A stretch of 64,000 nt of DNA from Pareuzebyella sediminis (GTDB lineage: Bacteria > Bacteroidota > Bacteroidia > Flavobacteriales > Flavobacteriaceae). The notes under the pieces were generated by a model. That model made no database searches, had not been told where the DNA came from, and saw nothing but the letters and a program-made list of their open reading frames with translations. A program made the translations under genes and the position numbers. Below are positions 13,141 through 24,554 of the stretch, in pieces. Each line of letters starts with the position of its first letter. The stretch's first letter is position 1. The stretch covers positions 124,001-188,000 of the forward strand of contig NZ_VTZS01000003.1 of NCBI RefSeq assembly GCF_008367235.1. Reading direction: 5' to 3'.

Positions 13141-14319
13141 ATGAAAACCGATTTATTTGAAGCCCCGGATTATTACCATCTTGACGAACTGTTTTCCGAT
13201 GAGCATAAACTGGTTAGGGATGCTGCACGGCAATGGGTAAAGCGCGATGTTTCGCCTATCATAGAGACCTATGCCCAGAAAGCTGAATTTCCAAAACAAA
13301 TTTTGAAAGGTCTTGCTGAAATAGGTGCATTCGGACCCTATATTCCAGAGGAATATGGTGGTGCCGGCCTAGACCAAATCAGTTATGGCCTTATTATGCA
13401 AGAAATCGAACGTGGAGATAGTGGGGTACGTTCCACGGCTTCCGTACAATCTTCATTGGTCATGTACCCTATATATAGTTATGGTACGGAGGAACAACGA
13501 AAAAAATATCTTGCTAAACTCGCCACAGGAGATTTGATGGGATGTTTTGGTTTGACAGAACCTAACCATGGTTCCAATCCTGGAGGTATGGAAACCAAGT
13601 TTAAGGATATGGGAGATCATTTTTTATTGAATGGCGCTAAATTATGGATATCAAACGCTCCTTTCGCTGATATAGCGATCGTTTGGGCAAAAAACGAGGA
13701 TGGCAGGATTCATGGTCTCATCATAGAACGTGGCATGGAAGGATTTACAACACCCGAGACCCATAACAAATGGTCATTGCGTGCTTCGGCCACCGGTGAG
13801 CTCATTTTTGACAATGTGAAAGTGCCCAAAGAAAACCTCTTGCCGAATAAATCGGGACTGGGCGCTCCCTTGGGCTGCCTCGATTCGGCAAGATACGGAA
13901 TTGCATGGGGCGCCATAGGCGCGGCTATGGACTGTTACGACACGGCACTTCGTTATGCCAAGGAACGCGAGCAGTTCGGTAAACCTATTGCCGCCTTTCA
14001 ACTACAGCAAAAAAAACTCGCCGAAATGATTACCGAAATAACGAAAGCCCAGTTACTGGCCTTCCGCTTGGGGCAATTAAAAAATCAAGGGAAGGCCACC
14101 AGCGCCCAAATCTCCATGGCGAAAAGAAACAATGTCGAAATGGCCCTTCAAGTTGCCAGGGAGGCCCGCCAAATATTGGGAGGCATGGGCATTACCGGGG
14201 AATACAGTATTATGCGCCATATGATGAACCTTGAAAGTGTCATCACGTATGAAGGTACGCATGACATTCATCTGTTGATAACCGGTGCCGACATCACAGG
14301 AATAGCTGCATTTCAGTAG
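13141..14319 (+). CDS. gcdH: glutaryl-CoA dehydrogenase (acyl-CoA dehydrogenase family)
   Basis: A 392-aa FAD enzyme that oxidises and decarboxylates glutaryl-CoA to crotonyl-CoA in lysine and tryptophan breakdown. Diagnostic segments are RSTASVQSSLVMYPIYSYG, GCFGLTEPNHGSNPGGMETK, SLRASATGELIFDNVKVP, and the C-terminal ITYEGTHDIHLLITG with the catalytic Glu, followed by ADITGIAAF. These match glutaryl-CoA dehydrogenases better than chain-length-specific acyl-CoA dehydrogenases. Length is normal for a cytosolic enzyme. No other lysine-degradation gene is nearby, so it is apparently monocistronic. Confidence 0.9.
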   Translation: MKTDLFEAPDYYHLDELFSDEHKLVRDAARQWVKRDVSPIIETYAQKAEFPKQILKGLAEIGAFGPYIPEEYGGAGLDQISYGLIMQEIERGDSGVRSTASVQSSLVMYPIYSYGTEEQRKKYLAKLATGDLMGCFGLTEPNHGSNPGGMETKFKDMGDHFLLNGAKLWISNAPFADIAIVWAKNEDGRIHGLIIERGMEGFTTPETHNKWSLRASATGELIFDNVKVPKENLLPNKSGLGAPLGCLDSARYGIAWGAIGAAMDCYDTALRYAKEREQFGKPIAAFQLQQKKLAEMITEITKAQLLAFRLGQLKNQGKATSAQISMAKRNNVEMALQVAREARQILGGMGITGEYSIMRHMMNLESVITYEGTHDIHLLITGADITGIAAFQ

Positions 14320-14544
14320 ACGGTTTTTCACCACAGCGAATTCAAGGTCTATAGGTACGCACTAATTCATTATCGCAATACCAGGCTCATCGACCAAGCT
14401 AAGTAATTAATCGGTCACGAAGTGATAGATCGCATCGTTGACCCCTCAAATAAGTCATCTCACCACAAGATGGGTATAGTTCACATCATATATTTTTAAT
14501 TCTTGAGTTCTACATGTACGTTTACCTTGTAATTCTTTTAGAAG
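14320..14544. other. intergenic stretch without a recognisable gene
   Basis: Between the gcdH stop and the 72-bp repeat I see no convincing ORF, tRNA or terminator on either strand. Confidence 0.5.
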
Positions 14545-14616
14545 TAAATTTTTTCATTTTCATATAGTGTTCTCGTAAAAGAGCCCTGTCGAATTCGACA
14601 AGGCTCTTTTTAGTTT
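14545..14616 (-). repeat. 72-bp direct repeat, copy 1, carrying a terminator hairpin
   Basis: This 72-nt stretch is identical, base for base, to 17501-17572. It contains a 15-bp stem at 14577-14610 (AAAAGAGCCCTGTCG, loop AATT, CGACAAGGCTCTTTT). The one C/A mismatch on the plus strand becomes a G-U pair in minus-strand RNA, so the hairpin is best read as a minus-strand terminator. It lies downstream of the molybdenum subunit gene. Together with copy 2 it brackets the molybdenum-hydroxylase module. Confidence 0.92.
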
Positions 14617-14646
14617 GAACATATACCTTAAGAAAGGCATATGTTC
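14617..14646 (-). terminator. hairpin just past the molybdenum subunit gene
   Basis: A 13-bp stem (GAACATATACCTT / AAGGCATATGTTC) with a 4-nt loop starts 24 nt past the stop at 14670. Its single mismatch is again G-U compatible in minus-strand RNA. It stands in tandem with the hairpin of the adjacent 72-bp repeat. There is no T tract directly after it, so it may protect the 3' end rather than terminate by itself. Confidence 0.6.
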
Positions 14647-14669
14647 TCAAAACACCTTTCTACTTATCA

Positions 14670-16859
14670 CTATCTAGCTTTCAACAGTTCAGGATCTACC
14701 GGTAGTCTTCGTATACGTATACCGGTAGCATCAAAAATTGCATTTACGATGGCAGCCGTGGCCGGAGCCTGGGTAGCCTCCCCAGCTCCCACAGGAGGTT
14801 GATCGACCCTATCGATAACCTCTACCTGCACCTCAGGCGTATCGGGAAACCGAAGAATAGGGTACGAATTCCAATCGAGGCTGGTAATGTGCTCGGCGTC
14901 GAACTTCACTTCTTCCTTCAGCGCCCAACTGGCCGATTGAATCATGCCTCCTTCCGTTTGGTTCTTTAGACCATCGGGATTAATGGTTTCGCCCGAATCT
15001 ACGACAGCCCACATTTTTTTGACGCGTACCTTTCCAGAATCCGTATTTACCGAAATCAAGGCCGCCATAGCACAATAAGAGGCTGAATTTTTATAACGAG
15101 AAAAAGCAAATCCTAGGCCCTCGTCCCTTTCCTTGGAAACCCCTTTGACCATAGTCTTCAATTGCTGCATACAATCAACCGACCTTTGGTCTAATGCATG
15201 CGACAACCGAAATTCCAAAGGATTTTTTTGGGCTTTTTCAGCCAGCTCATCCATCAAAGATTCAATGGCAAAAATATTCGTATACGTACCCAAACTTCTT
15301 AAGGAAGACGCTCTTAAGGGGCCTTGAAACATATGGGAACGGACGGTTATATTCGGGATTTTATAGTATGGCACTGTATTTCGATAAGCACCGCCACGAT
15401 ATCCTATCCCCGGATGTCCATATTCTTCCTCTAAAAAATATGCGGGCAGAAGGGTATTCGGATTTCCGTTCGGCCGATTGCTATGTCCATCAGACCAAAC
15501 ATCGCATTGCCAAGCCGCTATAGTACCACTATTATCGAGAGCGGCCTCAAGCTCAACGGCCATGGCGGTTCCATAGGGTTCCCATCCGTTTTCATCGTCA
15601 CGCATCCATTGTAGGCGAATGTGCCTGCCCGGATATTCTAGAGCCATAAGGGCAGCTTCGGCAGCGACATCATTGGCCCCGTTATGACCAAAGCATCCGG
15701 CGCCTGGCACCCCTTTGACATGCACCGATTCCTCGGGCATCCCTAAAAGTTTTGCCAAAGTTCCCCTTAAGGGATAAGCACCTTGACAATGCGACCATAC
15801 ATGTAGTTTTCCCTCTTCAAAAAGGGCAATGGCACAAGAAGGGCCGTTGGCCGCATGCATAAGGTACGGCTTGAAAAAAGAAGCCTTTACTTTTGATGTG
15901 GATTGCTGCAGCACCGTCTCTGGACTACCTATATTTTCATTAGTTTCCGTTTCGACCGGAAGCATCTTAATATACTCTTCCAAGTCTTTGCCAGCGGGCA
16001 ATTGATCCCCTCTAGAAGAATCCCATCGAACGAAGCCCTTAACCTGTTCCATGATTCGTATAGCTTCATATTCTTGCGCTGCCAATACCCCTAAAAAATT
16101 CCCTTTACGAATTAATTTTATGAGACCTGGTAGTTTCTTGATTTCCGAACTATCGAAATAAACAAGAGTAGACCTATAACTTGGTGGATGAACGACCCTG
16201 GCATGCAACATGTTCTTAAAACGCAGGTCTTGAACGAATACCTGCCGCCCCCTAACCATCGCCTCGATATCTTCTCGGGGAATCGGCCGTCCCACATATT
16301 TTCGTATCGATTTACCTCTGTACTGTTGTACCTCATGGATTGTCTTCTCTATCTGGCGGCCTTCCAGAAGTTGATAAAGGGATACCTCCTTATCAGGACC
16401 GAAAATCTTAGCATTTTTCAGTTTCAATTGCGTAGTCGGAATACTCCATTTCTCTGATGCTATCTGAAGAACGGCCTCCCTTGCGAAAGCAGCGGCATTC
16501 CGTATGGCCATCGCACTTGATTCTATAGATTGACTTCCAGCGGTAAATCCTTCATTGGGTGTCACCCCCGTTTCGGCAATCGCCACTTCGATAAGGGATA
16601 GATCGGTATCTAATTCTTCCGCCGCCATTTGTTTGACTGCAATGGTAATTCCTTGGCCTAATTCTATTTTACCGGTATAGATACGGATCCGGCCATCTTC
16701 CAGTAGCTGTAACCAAGCATCCACTTTGTTCTTATCAAGAGTTCTTTGAAGGGGCTGCCCATATTCTCCACCTGCGGCAAATCCGAACGGCCCGACCAAA
16801 GAAAACCCAATACTCACATAGCCTATTTGTTTGAGAAAGTCACGGCGCGTATTCTTCAT
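14670..16859 (-). CDS. Tat-exported molybdenum hydroxylase, molybdopterin-binding subunit (IorB/aldehyde-oxidase type)
   Basis: A 729-aa large subunit of the xanthine-oxidase family, in the isoquinoline-1-oxidoreductase/aldehyde-dehydrogenase branch. It starts with a Tat signal (NTRRDFLKQIG, Arg5-Arg6). LGQGITIAVKQMAAEEL near residue 65, VPGAGCFGHNGANDVAAEAA and GPLRASSLRSLGTYTN line the molybdenum cofactor, and PPVGAGEATQAPATAA near the C terminus carries the catalytic Glu. Such enzymes hydroxylate N-heterocycles or oxidise aldehydes, passing electrons to a [2Fe-2S] subunit, which is encoded 3 nt upstream. No FAD subunit is present, as expected for periplasmic forms that donate electrons to cytochromes. 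The substrate is unknown. Confidence 0.88.
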   Translation of the reverse strand: MKNTRRDFLKQIGYVSIGFSLVGPFGFAAGGEYGQPLQRTLDKNKVDAWLQLLEDGRIRIYTGKIELGQGITIAVKQMAAEELDTDLSLIEVAIAETGVTPNEGFTAGSQSIESSAMAIRNAAAFAREAVLQIASEKWSIPTTQLKLKNAKIFGPDKEVSLYQLLEGRQIEKTIHEVQQYRGKSIRKYVGRPIPREDIEAMVRGRQVFVQDLRFKNMLHARVVHPPSYRSTLVYFDSSEIKKLPGLIKLIRKGNFLGVLAAQEYEAIRIMEQVKGFVRWDSSRGDQLPAGKDLEEYIKMLPVETETNENIGSPETVLQQSTSKVKASFFKPYLMHAANGPSCAIALFEEGKLHVWSHCQGAYPLRGTLAKLLGMPEESVHVKGVPGAGCFGHNGANDVAAEAALMALEYPGRHIRLQWMRDDENGWEPYGTAMAVELEAALDNSGTIAAWQCDVWSDGHSNRPNGNPNTLLPAYFLEEEYGHPGIGYRGGAYRNTVPYYKIPNITVRSHMFQGPLRASSLRSLGTYTNIFAIESLMDELAEKAQKNPLEFRLSHALDQRSVDCMQQLKTMVKGVSKERDEGLGFAFSRYKNSASYCAMAALISVNTDSGKVRVKKMWAVVDSGETINPDGLKNQTEGGMIQSASWALKEEVKFDAEHITSLDWNSYPILRFPDTPEVQVEVIDRVDQPPVGAGEATQAPATAAIVNAIFDATGIRIRRLPVDPELLKAR

Positions 16860-16862
16860 ACC

Positions 16863-17330
16863 CTATGAATTTAAAGCTGCTTTTTTGATGGCCTTTATCA
16901 CTCTCGAATGGACCCCACAACGACAAATATTAATAGTGAGCTTTTCGCGAATGTCTTCATCGCTGGGTTTCTGATTTTTTTCCAACAACGCCACCGCGGC
17001 CATGACCATACCATTAAGGCAGTACCCACATTGAGCCGCCTGCTCGTCAATAAACGCCTGTTGTACGCTATGCAAATTACCGTCTTCATCTATCAGACCT
17101 TCCAGCGTCCGGATTTTGGATCTTGTCAATGCGCTTATCGGTAGACGGCAGGAGGGAATCGCTTCCCCGTCCCTTAAAACCATACAGGCACCACATTGTT
17201 GAAGTCCACAACCAAATTTGGGGCCGTTGAGTTCAAGTTCATTTCGTAACACATAAAGTAGTGGAGTATCAGGGCGAGCCGTTGTTTCATACTCCTTACC
17301 ATTAATCTGTAATTTTATGGGATTTGCCAT
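16863..17330 (-). CDS. [2Fe-2S] subunit of molybdenum hydroxylase (IorA type)
   Basis: A 155-aa electron-transfer subunit. It has a plant-ferredoxin-type cluster (FGCGLQQCGACMVL, then PSC) and the helical second cluster domain (QCGYCLNGM and NICRCGVHSR), the standard arrangement for this family. It takes electrons from the molybdopterin subunit encoded 3 nt downstream. It has no signal peptide and presumably crosses the membrane with the Tat-targeted large subunit. An electron acceptor is not obvious; the CxxCH proteins in the same locus are candidates (inference). Confidence 0.92.
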   Translation of the reverse strand: MANPIKLQINGKEYETTARPDTPLLYVLRNELELNGPKFGCGLQQCGACMVLRDGEAIPSCRLPISALTRSKIRTLEGLIDEDGNLHSVQQAFIDEQAAQCGYCLNGMVMAAVALLEKNQKPSDEDIREKLTINICRCGVHSRVIKAIKKAALNS

Positions 17331-17500
17331 ACTACATATTTAAATCAGAAGAATTCTATAGCATAAGCTACAAAAAAAATACCTTGTGATTTCTTTGATA
17401 TCGAAAAACATAGAATTCACAACAGAATCTATAGGTTACACATCATAATGTTGGGCTCTCAGCAAACAGATCGTATGTTTGTCATGTAATCATTCAGAAA

Positions 17501-17572
17501 TAAATTTTTTCATTTTCATATAGTGTTCTCGTAAAAGAGCCCTGTCGAATTCGACAAGGCTCTTTTTAGTTT
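17501..17572 (-). repeat. 72-bp direct repeat, copy 2, carrying a terminator hairpin
   Basis: Identical over 72 nt to 14545-14616, in the same orientation. The hairpin occupies 17533-17566. It lies 44 nt past the stop of the NHL-propeller gene on the minus strand, where it would terminate that transcript and separate it from the molybdenum-hydroxylase genes. Similarity fades just outside both ends, though the ~15 nt before the repeat (AATTCTTTTAGAAG versus AATCATTCAGAAA) remain partly alike. Confidence 0.92.
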
Positions 17573-17615
17573 ATACCAATTTTTTCTTTAGAATCGGTTG
17601 ATCTCCGATGAAGTG

Positions 17616-18710
17616 TTATACCCGTTCCAGTTTTATAGGATAGGTCTTGTTCGCATTCCACTGACATACATATACGTTCTCATCATCATCAATACATACA
17701 TCATGGCAATGGTGAAAAACAGCTTCTTGCTGTAACATACGCTGCAATTCGCCTTTTTTATATTCAGGGGGTGTTCCCCCGGGATTGGAAACTACGTTGT
17801 TGTCTTTGTCCAATATCGTCACAAAACCAGAATCAGGATTGTTCTGACTCGGATGGGAATTTTTAACGCCTTCCGCAAAATCAATTTTTGAAGACCAACA
17901 TACTCCCGCATATAAGTTATCGTTATGTATAACAGGACGGCATACAAAAGCCCCGGGCAAATAGATTTCTTCGAGGTAATTACCATCTAACGTAAATCTT
18001 TTGAAGCAATTACTGGCCCTAGAAGTCACCAATAATGTGGGGTCGTCCCCTTTCCTGTCATCAATACAGACACCATGAGCCGTTTGAAACTGTTCATTGG
18101 CAGTTCCCCGGCCGTTTCCGATTTTACGAATGAATTCACCTTCTTTAGTAAACTGAAGCACATATTGGGAGCCATATCCATCGGCCACATAAATATCTCC
18201 ATTGGGGCCTATCGTGGTTTCCGTGGGCTTAAAGGAATCTTCTTTTGCATATGCCCCGTACTCGGAAGGGTGACCAAGCAGCATCAATTCGCGCCCATCC
18301 AATGTGGTTTTAATCACCGAACCATCAGTGTCGCAAATGAATAAAAAATCTTTCTCGCCATCGTTCCAGAGAGAAAGACCGTGCCCTCCTTTATAGCGAA
18401 TACCCCATGAATCTAATAGCTTGCCCGACTTGTCATATATCAATACATTGTTATGCGTGTCGTCGCCAACCATCACCAGACGCCCTTTAGAATCCATTAC
18501 CATTTCGTGGCAATTATTGACCGGAGTCCTACTCGGGTCAAGATTGCCCCATTCTTTATGCACTTTATACTTGAAATCACCTTGCCCAATAATTTGTTCA
18601 CCAAGCACAGGTTTTGATTTTCCAATAAAAAAATGAGGGGTCATTACTATTCCCGTGGTGGCCATGGCTGTTTTTTCCATAAAATTTCTTCTATTGATAC
18701 TCTCTTTCAT
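17616..18710 (-). CDS. Tat-exported NHL-repeat six-bladed beta-propeller protein
   Basis: A 364-aa protein starting with a twin-arginine signal (INRRNFMEKTAMATTG). The rest is built of NHL-type repeats, for example KGRLVMVGDDTHNNVLIYDK, GDIYVADGYGSQYVLQFTKEG and ENVYVCQWNANKTYPIKL, and resembles peptidyl-glycine alpha-amidating-lyase-like propellers. Tat export suggests folding or cofactor loading before secretion. Such propellers accompany PVC-type DUF1501/DUF1553 genes in Planctomycetes, with unknown ligands. It follows the DUF1501 gene at 18.8 kb after a 130-nt gap. Confidence 0.82.
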   Translation of the reverse strand: MKESINRRNFMEKTAMATTGIVMTPHFFIGKSKPVLGEQIIGQGDFKYKVHKEWGNLDPSRTPVNNCHEMVMDSKGRLVMVGDDTHNNVLIYDKSGKLLDSWGIRYKGGHGLSLWNDGEKDFLFICDTDGSVIKTTLDGRELMLLGHPSEYGAYAKEDSFKPTETTIGPNGDIYVADGYGSQYVLQFTKEGEFIRKIGNGRGTANEQFQTAHGVCIDDRKGDDPTLLVTSRASNCFKRFTLDGNYLEEIYLPGAFVCRPVIHNDNLYAGVCWSSKIDFAEGVKNSHPSQNNPDSGFVTILDKDNNVVSNPGGTPPEYKKGELQRMLQQEAVFHHCHDVCIDDDENVYVCQWNANKTYPIKLERV

Positions 18711-18840: not shown

Positions 18841-20298
18841 TCAAATCAAAATATCGTTGACGACCCGGCCATGAACATCGGTCAATCGAAAATCACGGCC
18901 TTGAAATCTATAGGTCAAACGCTCATGGTCAAGGCCCAATTGGTTGAGAATCGTAGCCTGAATATCGTGAACATGAACCCTGCCCTTTGTACCTGAATAA
19001 CCGATTTCGTCTGTTTCTCCATAGGTAAATCCCTTTTTTATACCTCCACCGGCCATCCAAATAGTGAAGGCTTCGCTATGATGATCTCGTCCTAAAAAAC
19101 TCTGACCGGTCCGCGCTTCCATCATGGGGGTACGACCAAATTCACCCCCCCAAATAACCAGGGTATCTTCAAGCATACCACGTTGCTTCAAATCTTTCAG
19201 AAGGGCCGCCATAGGTCGATCTACTTGCATACATTTTCTTCTTAGACCTTCTCCTACGCCACCGCCAGGTCCAGCTCCGTGCATGTCCCAACCATTATCG
19301 TATAGTTGTACAAAACGAACTCCATTTTCTACCAATCGACGTGCCAAGAGGCAATTGTTCGCAAATGAATTTTTGCCGGGTGTGACCCCGTACATGTCTT
19401 GTATATAACCGGGTTCGCTATCGATATTCATCACTTTCGGAACGGAAGTCTGCATCTTAAAGGCCATTTCATATTGTGAAATTCGCGTCAAAATTTCCGG
19501 GTCCTGGGCTTCTTGATATTCCAGCTCATTAATTTTATTGATAATATCTACGGATTTTTTCCGCATCTTACTATCCACCCCATTAGGATTCTTAAGATTC
19601 TGTACTGGCGTACCCGTTGATTGGCATTGAACGCCCTGATGTACGGTGGGTAAGAAACCACTCCCCCAGAGGCGTTTGCCTCCTGTGGGACCTCCGGCGG
19701 AAAGCAAAACCACAAAACCAGGCAGATTCTCGTTCGGAGACCCGAGGCCGTAAGTAACCCACCCGCCCAAACTGGGCCGCCCTGTTCTCGGCGATCCGGT
19801 CTGCATTAAAAACTGGGCGGGTGCATGGTTGAACTCATCGGTGTGTACCGATTTTAGAAAAGTAACCTCATCCACAACTTCGGCAAATTGGGGCAAATAA
19901 TCGGATACCCAGGTACGCGATTCCCCAAATTGTTTAAAAGTGCTTTGTGGACCTAACATTTGAGGTACGCCCCTAATAAATGCGAAGCGTTTACCCTCGA
20001 GCAACGAAGGCGGACAAGACTGCCCGTTCATCTTTTGAAGCTCCGGTTTGTAATCAAAAAGTTCCAACTGTGAAGGGGCCCCGGCCATATGCAAATAAAT
20101 CACATGTTTTGCCTTCGGTACAAAATGTGGCATTCCGGAGCCCCCTTGTGAAGACCATGAATTTTTAGCGAAAAGGTCTGCCCCGCCCATCATCGAACCC
20201 AGTGTAACGGCTCCCATTCCGGTCACACATTTTTTTAGAAAATGCCTTCGGGTGTTGTATTCGCTTTGCCTAAAATGTGCTTCGTTTAAAATATCCAT
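18841..20298 (-). CDS. DUF1501 protein, Tat-exported (alkaline-phosphatase superfamily)
   Basis: A 485-aa protein with a Tat signal (NTRRHFLKKC, Arg17-Arg18). The body matches DUF1501, a family placed in the alkaline-phosphatase/sulfatase clan: KHVIYLHMAGAPSQLELFDYKP at the N terminus, DNGWDMHG in the middle, and TLVIWGGEFGRTPMMEA and GRDHHSEAFTIWMAGGGIKKG near the C terminus supply Asp/His metal-type residues. There is no formylglycine motif. DUF1501 genes almost always follow a PSD1 (DUF1549/DUF1553) gene, as here with a 3-nt gap. The reaction is not established. Confidence 0.9.
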   Translation of the reverse strand: MDILNEAHFRQSEYNTRRHFLKKCVTGMGAVTLGSMMGGADLFAKNSWSSQGGSGMPHFVPKAKHVIYLHMAGAPSQLELFDYKPELQKMNGQSCPPSLLEGKRFAFIRGVPQMLGPQSTFKQFGESRTWVSDYLPQFAEVVDEVTFLKSVHTDEFNHAPAQFLMQTGSPRTGRPSLGGWVTYGLGSPNENLPGFVVLLSAGGPTGGKRLWGSGFLPTVHQGVQCQSTGTPVQNLKNPNGVDSKMRKKSVDIINKINELEYQEAQDPEILTRISQYEMAFKMQTSVPKVMNIDSEPGYIQDMYGVTPGKNSFANNCLLARRLVENGVRFVQLYDNGWDMHGAGPGGGVGEGLRRKCMQVDRPMAALLKDLKQRGMLEDTLVIWGGEFGRTPMMEARTGQSFLGRDHHSEAFTIWMAGGGIKKGFTYGETDEIGYSGTKGRVHVHDIQATILNQLGLDHERLTYRFQGRDFRLTDVHGRVVNDILI

Positions 20299-20301
20299 GG
20301 G

Positions 20302-23073
20302 TTACCCTTTTACGATAAATTCATCTAAGTTCAACAAGGTATTGGCAACAATGGCAAGTGCCGCCAATTTATACTTTTCCTCGCCCATTCTTTCAATTGC
20401 AGCTTTTGGAAAGTCCGCCTCCTTCTCCTGTTGCATAAAATGTTCTTGGGCCTCTTGATAGAGTTCTTTCAATAACAAGAGTTTTTCATCGCTTATCTTT
20501 CGCCCCATTACCTTGGCATACCCAAATATCAATTGTTTTTCATAGTCCGGATCGGCTTCCATCATTTGTAACGCCAACGCATTCGATGCTTCAAAAAACG
20601 TTTCGTCGTTCAATAGGTTTAGGGCCTGCAACGGGGTATTGGTACGAATACGGCGCGATGTACAAACTGATCGGTCCGGACTATCAAAGGTAATCATTTC
20701 ATTAGGTGGTGTCACCCGCTTCCATAAGGTGTAGAGCGAACGCCGGTATTTCGCAGAATCACCTTTGACCGCCCAATCGGGAACTCCCGTCCATCCTCCA
20801 TCAACACTACTATTAATGACACTTGGGCCACCCACTAAAGGATTTAACAACCCGCTTACGGTCAAAACTTGATCTCGTATCTGCTCGGCCGATAAGCGTG
20901 TTCTGAACCCTCGGGAAAGCCATTGGTTTCGAGGATCATTTTCGATTTTTTCAATGTCTGCATCTGATGATTGTCGGTACGTTGCCGAAAGCACCAATTC
21001 ACGAAGTAGCGGCTTTACATGCCAATCATGGGTCTTTTCAAACCGAACCGCCATCCAGTCCAACAATTCAGGATGGGTCGGTTTTTCACCTTGCGTACCG
21101 AATTCTTCCATGGACTCGACCAATCCGAAGCCAAAAAGCTGTTCCCAAAAACGGTTGACCGCTACCCTTGCGGCCAACGGGTTTTTAGCACTAAGCATCC
21201 ATTGGGCAAATGCCAAACGGTCGTTTGGCTCTTCTGCTTCAGGATACCCATATATGTTGGGAATACCACGCTCCACTTCGTTCCCCAAAGTCAACCAACT
21301 ACCACGTTCGAACAAATGCGTCTTACGAGCTTCGGTCACTGGTAATTCTTGAATAATGGGTGTAGAAGTGGCAGGAATTTCAGCCAATCTCTTAAGCTTT
21401 TGATTAAAAGCAGTACTATATAATTCCATTCGAGGTTCTCTTTCGTAAAACCTCATCTTATCTAAATAAAAAAGATGGCCATCATACCGTTCTCCTTTAA
21501 AAAATCTCAAGTATATATCATGTTTGCCCTCGGTGGCAGCAATGGCTGCCTTAAATTCACGGGTATTATTTTTATGATCGACACCCTTTTGGGAGCCACC
21601 CGTTTTAGTAATCTTTACTGCACCTATTTTTTTCCCGTTCAATGAATCTAGGTGGACCGCAATATCACCTGCATAGCCAATAGTCGCCGAGGCAAAAAAG
21701 CCGATTTCATCGACATTTTTGAGGTCAATCTGATCGTACTTGACCCAAGAACTGTCTTGTACCTGCCATAGCAAACTCAAACTTTCATCCAATTCAATAA
21801 ACGGACTCGACTCATAAAAAGACTCTGCCTCATGTATTCGGTAACCGAGCCGGGTTAGCACCGCTTCCTTTTCCTCGTACAGATACGACGATTTTGGTGC
21901 TATATCTTCGGGTAAAAGTTCGGCATCAATATAAGTCAGAAGTGATTCTACTTCTTTTTTATTTTCTTCGGAATATGTAAAAATTTTAGGCTCCTCAAAA
22001 TAGGAATCATTGTCTTTGGCATTATTGAAAAATGCCATGGATTGGTAAAACTCTTCATGTCGAAATGGATCATAAGGATGGCTATGGCATTGCACACATG
22101 ACATCGTGGTACCTTGCCAAACTTCGTAGGTGGTCGCCACTCTTTCGACTACGGCGGCTATACGAAACTCCTCATTATCGGTACCTCCCTCATCATTGGC
22201 CAAAGTATTTCTATGGAACGCCGTAGCAATCAATTGTTGTTCGGTAGGATTAGGCAAAAGATCTCCGGCCAATTGTTCAATAGAAAACTGATCAAATGGC
22301 ATGTCATCATTAAAAGCATTGATTACATAATCCCTGAATTTCCATATCTCACGATTGGAATCTTTCTCATAGCCTTTGGAATCAGCATATCGGGCCAAAT
22401 CCATCCACATCGCCGCCCAACGCTCACCAAAATGTGGTGAGGCCAATAATTTATCCACTTCTTTTTCATAGGCATCCGCAGCCCTGTTTTCCATATAGGT
22501 CTCAACTTCTTCCAAAGTCGGAGGTATTCCGATAAGATCAAGGTAAAGTCTTCTCAACAAGGTGGCTTTATCGGCCTCAGGGGAAGGGTACAATTCTTTC
22601 TCCCTCATTTTCGCATAAACGAATTGGTCGATCTCGTTTTTAGGCCAAGACAGGCTATCTATGACAGGAGGGTCGATGTTCCTTTTTGGAGGGATATACG
22701 CCCAATGTTTCTCCCATTTGGCGCCTTGGTCTATCCATCTTTTGACAATATCTATCTCTGCGGATGAAAGGGGAGCGGCATCTTGCGGCATGCGCAACTC
22801 CGCATCTTCATGCACCAAACGTTTGTAGAGTTCGCTGCTTTCTGCCTTACCCCGAACAATAGCCTGCTTGCCAGATTCTGTACGGGCAAAGGCATCCTCT
22901 TCAAAAAGAAGGCTAAAACCCCCATTCGCTTTCACGCCACCATGGCACCGTAAGCACTTGGCATTCAAAATTGGGCGAACATCTCGGTTATAGCTTATTA
23001 TGTCGGAGGTTGATTCTTGACAAGAACCCAACCACATCAAACATAGTACAACGACTGTTAGTTTAAAGCTCAT
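20302..23073 (-). CDS. PSD1-type lipoprotein: cytochrome-like domain, DUF1549, CBM6-like domain, DUF1553
   Basis: A 923-aa Planctomycete-type protein. MSFKLTVVVLCLMWLGSC is a lipoprotein signal (Cys18). A PSCyt1 haem-type domain follows with CLRCH at 40-44, then DUF1549 (from about 125) with a second CxxCH (CVQCH, 326-330). A beta-sandwich insertion at about 412-546 (IHEAESFYESS to LDKMRFYE) looks like a CBM6-type carbohydrate-binding module. DUF1553 fills the C-terminal third (NPLAARVAVNRFWEQLFG, NTPLQALNLLNDETF). The two CxxCH motifs suggest covalent haem, though haem loading is unproven for the family. It is paired with the DUF1501 gene 3 nt downstream and is a paralogue of the protein at 24.6-27.4 kb. 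Confidence 0.9.
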   Translation of the reverse strand: MSFKLTVVVLCLMWLGSCQESTSDIISYNRDVRPILNAKCLRCHGGVKANGGFSLLFEEDAFARTESGKQAIVRGKAESSELYKRLVHEDAELRMPQDAAPLSSAEIDIVKRWIDQGAKWEKHWAYIPPKRNIDPPVIDSLSWPKNEIDQFVYAKMREKELYPSPEADKATLLRRLYLDLIGIPPTLEEVETYMENRAADAYEKEVDKLLASPHFGERWAAMWMDLARYADSKGYEKDSNREIWKFRDYVINAFNDDMPFDQFSIEQLAGDLLPNPTEQQLIATAFHRNTLANDEGGTDNEEFRIAAVVERVATTYEVWQGTTMSCVQCHSHPYDPFRHEEFYQSMAFFNNAKDNDSYFEEPKIFTYSEENKKEVESLLTYIDAELLPEDIAPKSSYLYEEKEAVLTRLGYRIHEAESFYESSPFIELDESLSLLWQVQDSSWVKYDQIDLKNVDEIGFFASATIGYAGDIAVHLDSLNGKKIGAVKITKTGGSQKGVDHKNNTREFKAAIAATEGKHDIYLRFFKGERYDGHLFYLDKMRFYEREPRMELYSTAFNQKLKRLAEIPATSTPIIQELPVTEARKTHLFERGSWLTLGNEVERGIPNIYGYPEAEEPNDRLAFAQWMLSAKNPLAARVAVNRFWEQLFGFGLVESMEEFGTQGEKPTHPELLDWMAVRFEKTHDWHVKPLLRELVLSATYRQSSDADIEKIENDPRNQWLSRGFRTRLSAEQIRDQVLTVSGLLNPLVGGPSVINSSVDGGWTGVPDWAVKGDSAKYRRSLYTLWKRVTPPNEMITFDSPDRSVCTSRRIRTNTPLQALNLLNDETFFEASNALALQMMEADPDYEKQLIFGYAKVMGRKISDEKLLLLKELYQEAQEHFMQQEKEADFPKAAIERMGEEKYKLAALAIVANTLLNLDEFIVKG

Positions 23074-23093
23074 GGTAAGCTTGTGTTTTACTT

Positions 23094-24554
23094 CTATGAA
23101 GAGGCCGTCTGTATAGTAGCTGTCTTGCCGAATAAATCAAGAATAGGTTTGCCATGACCATCAGGAGTGGTATAGAAAGGTCTTCCCTCTATGGTGTAAT
23201 GTGTTTCGGGATGGATGCCCAATGCATGGTATATCGACTGATGTACCTGATCGATTACCACAGGGTTTTCAATAGAGGAACAAGGCCTTTCATCCGCTGT
23301 TTTACCATATACCAACCCTTTTTCAACACCGCCTCCCCACATGAGTATCGAACTGCCATCGGTAAAATGCCGATGCATTCCATAAAATTTTTCGTCTTCA
23401 ATGACATCGGGTTGCGCCACCTGATCTTTGACCTGTTCGCCAGGCCGCCCTTCCATTATGGCATCTCTACTAAACTCACTGGCTAAAATAATCAATGTGC
23501 GATCTAAATGGCCGCTCTCATCCAAATCTTTTACCAATTGAGCAATTGGGCGATCAATAAGTTCTTTCATCTTGACCAGACGTGTATGTCCGTTTTCATG
23601 GGTATCCCATCCTAAAAAGGGTTCATATTCCGTGGAAACGCTAATAAACCGTCCCCCGTTCATGGCCAATCTTTTGGCCAAAAGGCATCCCAAACCAAAG
23701 CGACCGGTATTATACGTGTCATAGACCTCCTTTGGTTCTTGGGATAGATCGAACACTTTTGCTTCAGGAGAGTTTAACAGCCGATATGATTGTTCCATGG
23801 AGCGCATCAAAGACTCGCGCTGATAATCGCTACCCTCTTCCATCATTTTACTCTTGTTGGCCAACTCTTTATACAGTTTGTATCGGGCTTCAAATCGTTC
23901 AAGGGACATACCTTGAGGTGGACGTACGCTTTCCAATCCACCGGAAGGGTCGGGTATCAAAAAAGGACCGTACTCCGTTCCCAAAAATCCTGCGGAATGA
24001 AAAGCTTTTAGCTCCTCCGCCTCACCTACGGTAAACCGTTGTCCCATGGCAATAAATGGGGGAATTACCGGATTGGCCGGGCCAAGTTCTTTGGAGATCC
24101 ATGCCCCTATGTGCGGTGCTTGAACAGATTGAGGAGGTTCATAACAGGTATGCCAGTGATATTGATGTCGCGTATGTAAAATATGTCCTAGATCAGCCGA
24201 TTTGTAGGAACGGATGATGGCTCCCTTGTCCATCACTCCCGCCATCGATTCCAGACCTTTTGAAAAATAAAGGCCGTCAACAGCAGTAGGTATTTTTGGA
24301 AAGGTACTCAGTACCCTTTTACTTTCCACCCCCTTTTCATAAGGCACATAGGCTTTAGGGTCGAAGGTCTCGGTATGGGCCATTCCCCCGGCCATCCATA
24401 ATAAAATTACAGTATCGGCCGTAGAGGGAATCTTCGGAACCGACTTCGAACACGAGCTCAAGAAGCTCGCCATTGGAATGGTGGTAGCCGAAGCCGCCAA
24501 ACTGGCCGCCGTCATTTTTTTAATAAAATCCCTTCGTGGGTTATGTGTTTCCAT
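23094..24554 (-). CDS. second DUF1501 protein, Tat signal with possible lipobox
   Basis: A 486-aa DUF1501 protein, a paralogue of the one at 18.8 kb. The N terminus has NPRRDFIKKM (Arg7-Arg8) and then FLSSC, so it may be a Tat-exported lipoprotein. Recognisable blocks are VILLWMAGGMAHTETFDPKA, GWDTHENGH, TLIILASEFSRDA and HFTDGSSILMWGGGVEKGLV. The arrangement of His and Asp residues resembles alkaline-phosphatase-superfamily metal sites, without a visible Ser/Thr/formylglycine nucleophile. It lies 59 nt downstream of the membrane PSD1-like gene and 20 nt upstream of the next PSD1 gene, so all four appear cotranscribed. Confidence 0.88.
   Translation of the reverse strand: METHNPRRDFIKKMTAASLAASATTIPMASFLSSCSKSVPKIPSTADTVILLWMAGGMAHTETFDPKAYVPYEKGVESKRVLSTFPKIPTAVDGLYFSKGLESMAGVMDKGAIIRSYKSADLGHILHTRHQYHWHTCYEPPQSVQAPHIGAWISKELGPANPVIPPFIAMGQRFTVGEAEELKAFHSAGFLGTEYGPFLIPDPSGGLESVRPPQGMSLERFEARYKLYKELANKSKMMEEGSDYQRESLMRSMEQSYRLLNSPEAKVFDLSQEPKEVYDTYNTGRFGLGCLLAKRLAMNGGRFISVSTEYEPFLGWDTHENGHTRLVKMKELIDRPIAQLVKDLDESGHLDRTLIILASEFSRDAIMEGRPGEQVKDQVAQPDVIEDEKFYGMHRHFTDGSSILMWGGGVEKGLVYGKTADERPCSSIENPVVIDQVHQSIYHALGIHPETHYTIEGRPFYTTPDGHGKPILDLFGKTATIQTASS

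Follow-up and report, generated by a model that had tools for sequence, protein, structure and literature searches.

A pair of identical 72-nucleotide (nt) sequences in a 64,000-nt stretch of the Pareuzebyella sediminis genome (contig NZ_VTZS01000003.1, positions 124,001 to 188,000; hereafter the window, to which plain coordinates refer) most likely corresponds, on comparative sequence evidence, to the transcribed parts of a pair of sibling small-RNA genes, both ~85-100 nt long and read from the + strand. The sequences (14545-14616 and 17501-17572) share the same orientation and lie on either side of iorB- and iorA-like molybdenum-hydroxylase genes, and it is very likely that each forms part of a complete + strand small-RNA gene. 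In the proposed explanation, a LytTR response regulator with a TPR histidine kinase would act at a direct repeat with a 21-nt period and would switch on the kinase gene as well as the RNA genes; the core of the RNA would pair with the start-codon region of the mRNA for a CAP-domain (PF00188) lipoprotein, this pairing would block translation of the lipoprotein, and recombination between the two RNA copies would keep both identical. This chain as a whole is favored with moderate confidence.

Architecture of the predicted small-RNA genes

The sequence-only reading had described identical same-strand 72-bp repeats, each with a hairpin, around iorB and iorA, and this description was confirmed by sequence comparison. 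The exact match stopped at both ends, and allowing mismatches extended it leftward to 14534/17490 (83 nt at 96% identity). Both copies contained the hairpin AAAAGAGCCCTGTCGAATTCGACAAGGCTCTTTT (14577-14610 and 17533-17566), the fold of which was more stable than that of every one of 200 shuffled sequences, with z values of -5.3 for the + strand and -7.2 for the - strand. Aligned copies displayed, in + strand order, a direct repeat, a -7 box TAnnTTTR (which we take to be the Bacteroidota promoter consensus), a variable 5' part, a conserved core, the hairpin, and a T-rich tail. A covariance model (R1) built from 64 of the 178 non-redundant copies scored copy 1 with 101 bits (E 1.4e-15) and copy 2 with 100 bits (E 2.2e-15), both being members of its training set.

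The predicted promoter has a fixed geometry. A TAnnTT[TA][AG] box occurred 22-70 nt upstream of the core in 204 of the 215 distinct copies with enough upstream sequence, compared to 11% of 5000 random positions, and CAMAWCA lay exactly 35 nt upstream of the -7 box in 152 of the 165 copies with both boxes and at 56 nt (35 + 21, one period further) in seven more. The direct-repeat spacing 15/28 gave 270 matches compared to 0-10 for 12 other spacings across all fetched DNA, a set that included overlapping loci and was enriched for these promoter sites. In the 4.9-Mb P. sediminis genome, the full direct-repeat promoter matched 10 sites exactly and 17 with at most one mismatch (reversed control, 0), and the exact sites included all four RNA copies of this genome, with those in the window at 14462-14524 and 17419-17481.

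Conservation extended ~115 nt upstream of the hairpin, up to this promoter of fixed spacing. Within the hairpin alignment (64 rows), 95.8% of cells were paired and 74 cells were changed on both sides, compared to a shuffled mean of 24.5 that reached 74 in none of 500 shuffles; the covariation score was 0.372 vs 0.227 for shuffled alignments and at most 0.124 for slid versions.

Distribution and genomic neighbors of the RNA family

The P. sediminis genome (20 contigs) encoded two further copies with 85-87% identity, giving four in total; the hairpin stems of these two had other sequences and the adjoining stretch was the same. The 23-mer GAACACTATATGAAAATGAAAAA (reverse strand) had four exact matches in this genome and none for the reversed control, plus two extra matches at three mismatches, one of which was the start of the CAP-domain lipoprotein gene discussed below. 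At least 113 of 397 genomes in the family sample had a match to the 23-mer with three or fewer mismatches, a count that includes background since reversed-control matches also arise in some genomes. A scan of named genomes identified at least 120 stretches, the matches listed being mainly from Maribacter, Muricauda/Allomuricauda/Flagellimonas, Arenibacter, Cellulophaga, Zobellia and Pseudozobellia, Robiginitalea, Eudoraea, Muriicola, Croceitalea, and other Flavobacteriaceae. The covariance model recovered the four P. sediminis copies and gave strong matches (E < 1e-6) in 10 of 60 family genomes including P. sediminis, with 3-5 copies per genome in the other nine; another family genome gave one borderline match, and among 39 genomes from outside the family the matches were confined to borderline ones in two. 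In the comparisons below, genome G045 was counted as RNA-negative despite a borderline model match (E 7.4e-4). Tandem arrays of three to four RNA cores, ~230-310 nt apart, were observed in G385 (L108), G388 (L097), and G057 (L160), and each tandem core in G385 and G388 had a promoter-like sequence of its own.

Being multicopy, dispersed, and at times tandem, the element might be a mobile repeat of the repetitive extragenic palindrome or miniature inverted-repeat transposable element type that happens to hold a terminator. There is only a slim chance of this, as strongly matching family genomes held just 3-5 copies each; the copies recurred at the same positions, namely between the regulator and kinase genes and beside an enoyl-CoA hydratase family gene, ppc, and gcdH; and a constant core, a covarying stem, and a promoter of fixed spacing were maintained.

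Gene orientation around 214 copies, based on crude open reading frame (ORF) calls, indicated that the upstream neighbor was codirectional in 134 and divergent in 72, while the downstream neighbor was convergent in 129 (median distance 60 nt) and codirectional in 76 (median ~300 nt). The 72 divergent upstream and 76 codirectional downstream neighbors signify that the RNA element is more than the terminator of an adjacent gene. Copy 2 sits between the divergent iorA and the convergent NHL propeller gene and, as it lies upstream of divergent iorA, there is no coding gene that its hairpin could terminate on the + strand.

These results bear on a bidirectional terminator duplicated upon insertion of iorAB, leaving a module that could be excised by recombination, which was the interpretation of the sequence-only reading. 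The strong hairpin on both strands, the convergent genes that end near many copies, the gcdH-RNA synteny with and without iorAB, and the identity of the two copies in the window would all suit such a terminator, but it is rendered very improbable by conservation reaching from the hairpin to the fixed-spacing promoter, the neighbor orientations above, a stem that varies while the core is constant, and the bracketing of iorAB by non-identical copies in other genomes. Further copies of the 72-mer element, for which that reading had proposed a genome-wide search, were found dispersed at unrelated genes, both as the four P. sediminis copies and across many genera, and carried their own promoter, core, and terminator; this counts against a shared terminator as the vehicle of the module.

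On the opposite strand, a conserved leader or short ORF after the hairpin (ATGAAAATGAAAAAATT, MKMKK...) would make the element a translated leader or small-protein gene, and the tail of the exact copies does hold ATGAAAATGAAAA. However, the frames in 10 copies were 8-27 residues long and unrelated in sequence, the other strand is the one with the conserved promoter, and the same letters are accounted for by antisense complementarity to the start site of the CAP gene; a minus-strand terminator with a leader peptide was therefore rejected, and a leader or small protein of any kind is scarcely credible.

Candidate LytTR regulator

Some of the commonest recurrent neighbors pointed to a two-component system. 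The cluster directly upstream of 48 copies was a response regulator with a LytTR domain and that directly downstream of 46 copies was a TPR/HisKA_2 histidine kinase, the Pfam assignment resting on one representative of each cluster. The regulator was present at 74-100% identity in all 39 RNA-positive genomes tested, compared to 1 of 33 RNA-negative genomes (at 65%). The direct-repeat promoter was also identified in the gap before the kinase gene in 27 of 30 regulator loci, including 10 of the 12 without an exact RNA core (these 12 include G056, in which a diverged model match lies beside the regulator), and by a strict pattern nine of the 30 loci had two promoters, one ahead of the RNA and one ahead of the kinase. 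The P. sediminis regulator orthologue (C10:491332, 82% identity) likewise had the promoter in its gap before the kinase gene.

LytTR proteins are known to bind direct repeats that are separated by roughly two turns of the DNA helix. The 21-nt period and the fixed 35 nt to the -7 box fit a promoter layout of this type, with the repeat as the predicted site. From the co-occurrence of the regulator, the shared promoter ahead of the kinase gene, and the LytTR-like repeat spacing, we infer that the LytTR response regulator quite probably drives the RNA genes and its own kinase gene. A regulator was also present in G030 (L429), which is RNA-negative by core; two direct repeats followed the regulator gene there, together with a hairpin resembling a terminator but preceded by another sequence, perhaps a diverged RNA.

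Predicted CAP-domain lipoprotein target

Several near-matches to the core at gene starts of different genomes fell in one gene, coding for a CAP-domain lipoprotein (PF00188 by Pfam in the P. sediminis gene, C14:270706). Within three mismatches of the 21-mer, the P. sediminis genome contained only the four RNAs and this gene (control, 0). The predicted duplex with the CAP gene had the lowest energy of 357 P. sediminis gene starts, -26.9 kcal/mol compared to -23.9 for the runner-up and a mean of -12.7 (standard deviation 3.5), in a ranking that covered the window and ~432 kb of other P. sediminis DNA, about a tenth of the genome with the CAP region deliberately included, and that started every ORF at its first ATG and took no account of accessibility. 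As candidate targets, iorA, iorB, gcdH, and the NHL gene were rejected with energy ranks of 267, 181, 150, and 224; by this modeling, iorAB are neighbors of the RNA genes and not predicted targets.

The CAP start site AGAACACTATATGAAAATG and the preceding CCTACTTACAAAT recurred across genera with small changes. The site was present with at most three mismatches in 19 in 20 of 30 loci from RNA-positive genomes compared to none of 30 from RNA-negative genomes (minimum six mismatches), the loci being the best 30 of 52 and the best 30 of 41 matches, respectively. It is thus probable, as judged from predicted pairing, that the RNA core pairs with the start region of the CAP lipoprotein mRNA and blocks its translation. 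Extra GAGAAC/GAGAAT motifs were observed in the 5' regions of the CAP genes (L288-L317), with a mean of 1.1 per region compared to 0.03 for RNA-negative genomes, and might provide additional sites for pairing. The second-best predicted pairing in P. sediminis (-23.9 kcal/mol) was the gene start at L361:9106-9879 (C14), which has ACGAGAACGCATATATGAAATTTC.

The small RNA might be real and have another main target, such as other mRNAs or a sequestered protein, or might not be controlled by the LytTR regulator. In its favor, the CAP pairing is a prediction from a ranking of about a tenth of the genome, and in two genomes (G211 and G385; L154 and L155) the core is also matched at the start site of a different gene (GGACAGTTTATGAAAATGAAAAA), which has an upstream ACGAGAAC motif and an exported-looking product. 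Nevertheless, this alternative is considered unlikely in view of a CAP start site that was conserved across genera and not found in RNA-negative genomes, the near-exclusive co-occurrence of the regulator with the RNA, and the promoter shared with the kinase gene.

The iorAB locus and identity of the two copies

The features around the two predicted RNA genes are compiled in Table 1, in which the acyl-CoA dehydrogenase gene is one that we take to be gcdH. No transposase was found among the six window proteins scanned with Pfam, those six being the scope of the search. Beyond the NHL propeller and iorAB genes, the window (18841-24554) contains genes for DUF1501, PSCyt1/PSCyt2/PSD1, and a second DUF1501-like protein, and DUF1501-like genes adjoin RNA copies in other genomes as well.

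Table 1. Coordinates of the two predicted small-RNA genes and adjacent genes in the window.
Feature	Position	Strand	Remark
Acyl-CoA dehydrogenase (gcdH), adjoins copy 1	13141..14319	+	Also near RNA copies of other genomes
Copy 1 upstream direct repeat ACCACA-N15-ACATCA	14462..14488	+	Period of 21 nt; candidate site for the response regulator
Copy 1 -7 promoter box TACGTTTA	14517..14524	+	35 nt start-to-start after CACATCA box
Copy 1 predicted small RNA	14531..14616	+	Includes 72-mer; start inferred ~7 nt past -7 box
Copy 1 unpaired core ATTTTTTCATTTTCATATAGTGTTCTCG	14548..14575	+	Predicted antisense to CAP-lipoprotein start site
Copy 1 intrinsic terminator	14577..14616	+	Hairpin 14577-14610 and T-rich tail
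iorB-like molybdenum-hydroxylase large subunit, bracketed gene	14670..16859	-	Pfam Mo-cofactor-binding domain
iorA-like 2Fe-2S subunit, bracketed gene	16863..17330	-	Pfam 2Fe-2S domain
Copy 2 upstream direct repeat ACAACA-N15-ACATCA	17419..17445	+	21-nt period
Copy 2 -7 promoter box TATGTTTG	17474..17481	+	
Copy 2 predicted small RNA	17488..17572	+	Includes 72-mer 17501-17572; start inferred
Copy 2 unpaired core, same as copy 1	17504..17531	+	
Copy 2 intrinsic terminator, same as copy 1	17533..17572	+	
NHL/6-bladed propeller protein, convergent neighbor of copy 2	17616..18710	-	Pfam

Two same-strand, non-identical RNA copies also bracketed iorAB in G211, G265, G420, and G168, which were chosen for having two RNA cores ~2.9 kb apart, and in G011, which was selected from an iorB search together with G037; the more distant iorAB of G037 (48% iorB identity) lies on a 7.7-kb contig in which no exact RNA core was present. 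Since iorAB is bracketed by non-identical copies in five other genomes, the arrangement appears old rather than a fresh insertion of the module. The P. sediminis pair was 94% identical compared to 75-89% with its orthologues, and the same held for the G168 pair (88% vs 75-82%). The exact identity of the P. sediminis copies is therefore most likely the result of local homogenization, i.e., gene conversion or other recombination between them, as judged from these identities.

The gcdH-RNA pair was found without adjoining iorAB in G001, G018, G037, G119, G223, G274, G395, and several named genomes, and the gcdH slot of G385 contained four tandem RNA genes. The genes beyond the RNA at this slot varied, the comparison being at species level. 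This synteny with and without iorAB makes it plausible that iorAB was gained or lost over evolutionary time at a slot marked by RNA genes. The proposed module insertion or duplication is thus retained in part: it is probable that iorAB came or went next to duplicated RNA genes, and improbable that a shared terminator was the vehicle. The comparison with relatives yielded slots with one RNA gene and no iorAB, along with the old bracketing elsewhere, and the repeats look like independent transcription units rather than the functionless ends of a mobile module. Different genes followed the RNA at the gcdH slot in L079, L108, L119, L121, L133, L140, L220, L228, and L281, and the following gene pointed toward the RNA in 13 of 15 loci; the slot is possibly a place of frequent gene turnover.

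Evaluation of the proposed chain

Several observations speak against parts of the proposed chain from the RNA genes to the CAP lipoprotein. For the hairpin, pairs with a double change numbered 8 vs 6.6 in shuffled alignments (reached in 88 of 500 shuffles) and further pair types 25 vs 21.1 (reached in 6 of 500), these being covariation measures described as more robust to relatedness; the weakness of these two stricter measures lowers confidence in the whole explanation. The minus-strand hairpin was also more stable than the plus-strand hairpin and, being stable on both strands, may also end convergent genes. The copies were found via an exact core pattern such that the invariance of the 21-23-mer results partly from selection, although TCGTAAAAGAG, just beyond the search pattern, still held 1.2-1.9 bits per position.

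For the regulator, weaker relatives (36-40% identity) occurred in three more RNA-negative genomes, the regulator-kinase gap of P. sediminis had no RNA core, and the genomes are related so that co-occurrences of RNA, regulator, and target are not independent. For the target, 10 of the 30 RNA-positive CAP loci had no good site, the RNA-negative CAP homologues were just 30-44% identical and may be paralogues, and the P. sediminis site itself has one mismatch in 19. Finally, the copy pairs of G011 (66%), G211 (82%), G265 (91%), and G420 (89%) were less alike than their closest orthologues.

Relation to known small RNAs

Searches with Rfam 15 of the window from 13800 to 18200 gave four matches up to E 5, all under the gathering scores, and seven further loci gave only a tRNA. 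A literal search of papers for core 18-mers gave no match and no title or abstract in a literature search was recognized as this RNA family. We rate the RNA family as new and its kind, i.e., multicopy small RNAs under a two-component system, as known, there being several similar copies per genome that each carry a promoter and intrinsic terminator of their own by sequence.

The closest parallels outside the phylum are small RNAs tied to regulatory systems. The Streptococcus csRNAs of the CiaRH regulon comprise several similar small RNAs under one two-component system, with sequences that allow pairing at ribosome binding sites and at start codons; the present family resembles them in sibling small RNAs per genome, candidate two-component control, and predicted start-codon pairing, and differs in the phylum, the candidate LytTR-type regulator, and one RNA gene often lying between regulator and kinase (PMC4507080). 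The five copies of Listeria LhrC1-5 depend on LisRK through an element upstream of the promoter and LhrC targets an mRNA that codes for a cell-envelope-associated protein; the multiple copies, candidate two-component system with an upstream element, and predicted envelope-type target are similar, but LhrC has three CU-rich binding sites and a different regulator and phylum (PMC4132741). As with FasX of the FasBCA system in group A Streptococcus, an RNA gene of the family often lies within the locus of its candidate regulators, whereas FasX is a single RNA from a four-gene locus in another phylum (PMC12675982).

Within the family, Rfp18 of Flavobacterium psychrophilum is also a conserved Flavobacteriaceae small RNA with proposed targets encoding secreted proteins, but it has at least three stem-loops, pairs via the third, targets metalloproteases, and is described as conserved in the genus Flavobacterium (PMC9723704). 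The present family has a single terminator hairpin, and none of the 120 named records listed was titled Flavobacterium. The present family is not demonstrably Rfp18.

Wider regulon and biological meaning

The 10 exact promoter sites of P. sediminis were distributed as four at the small RNAs, one at the regulator's own kinase gene, and three to four at a second set of ~170-nt, apparently non-coding stretches behind the same promoter (C14:235167, 666333, 688912, and 657079 exact; 688650 with one mismatch). Members of this set (L417, L419, L420, L418, and L426) started with CCCTGT..GATAGT..TTGACCC and contained a GC hairpin and T run; L417, L419, and L420 were clearly alike, and L426 and L418 were more distant. 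The set is likely a second small-RNA family of the same regulon. The tenth exact site (C2:3307-3369, L412), on an 11-kb contig, had a hairpin and T run no more than ~110 nt downstream. A tentative picture is a LytTR system in marine Flavobacteriaceae that may have a largely non-coding direct output, silence the CAP lipoprotein, and have module slots marked by RNA genes.

To our knowledge, few Bacteroidota small RNAs have so far been assigned a putative regulator together with a putative target. The finding provides an RNA family that spans many genera, with a candidate two-component regulator, promoter motif, and target that can be tested in cultivated marine strains. It also illustrates that exact repeats flanking a gene module, however striking, can represent a homogenized pair of RNA genes and not the boundary of a mobile element.

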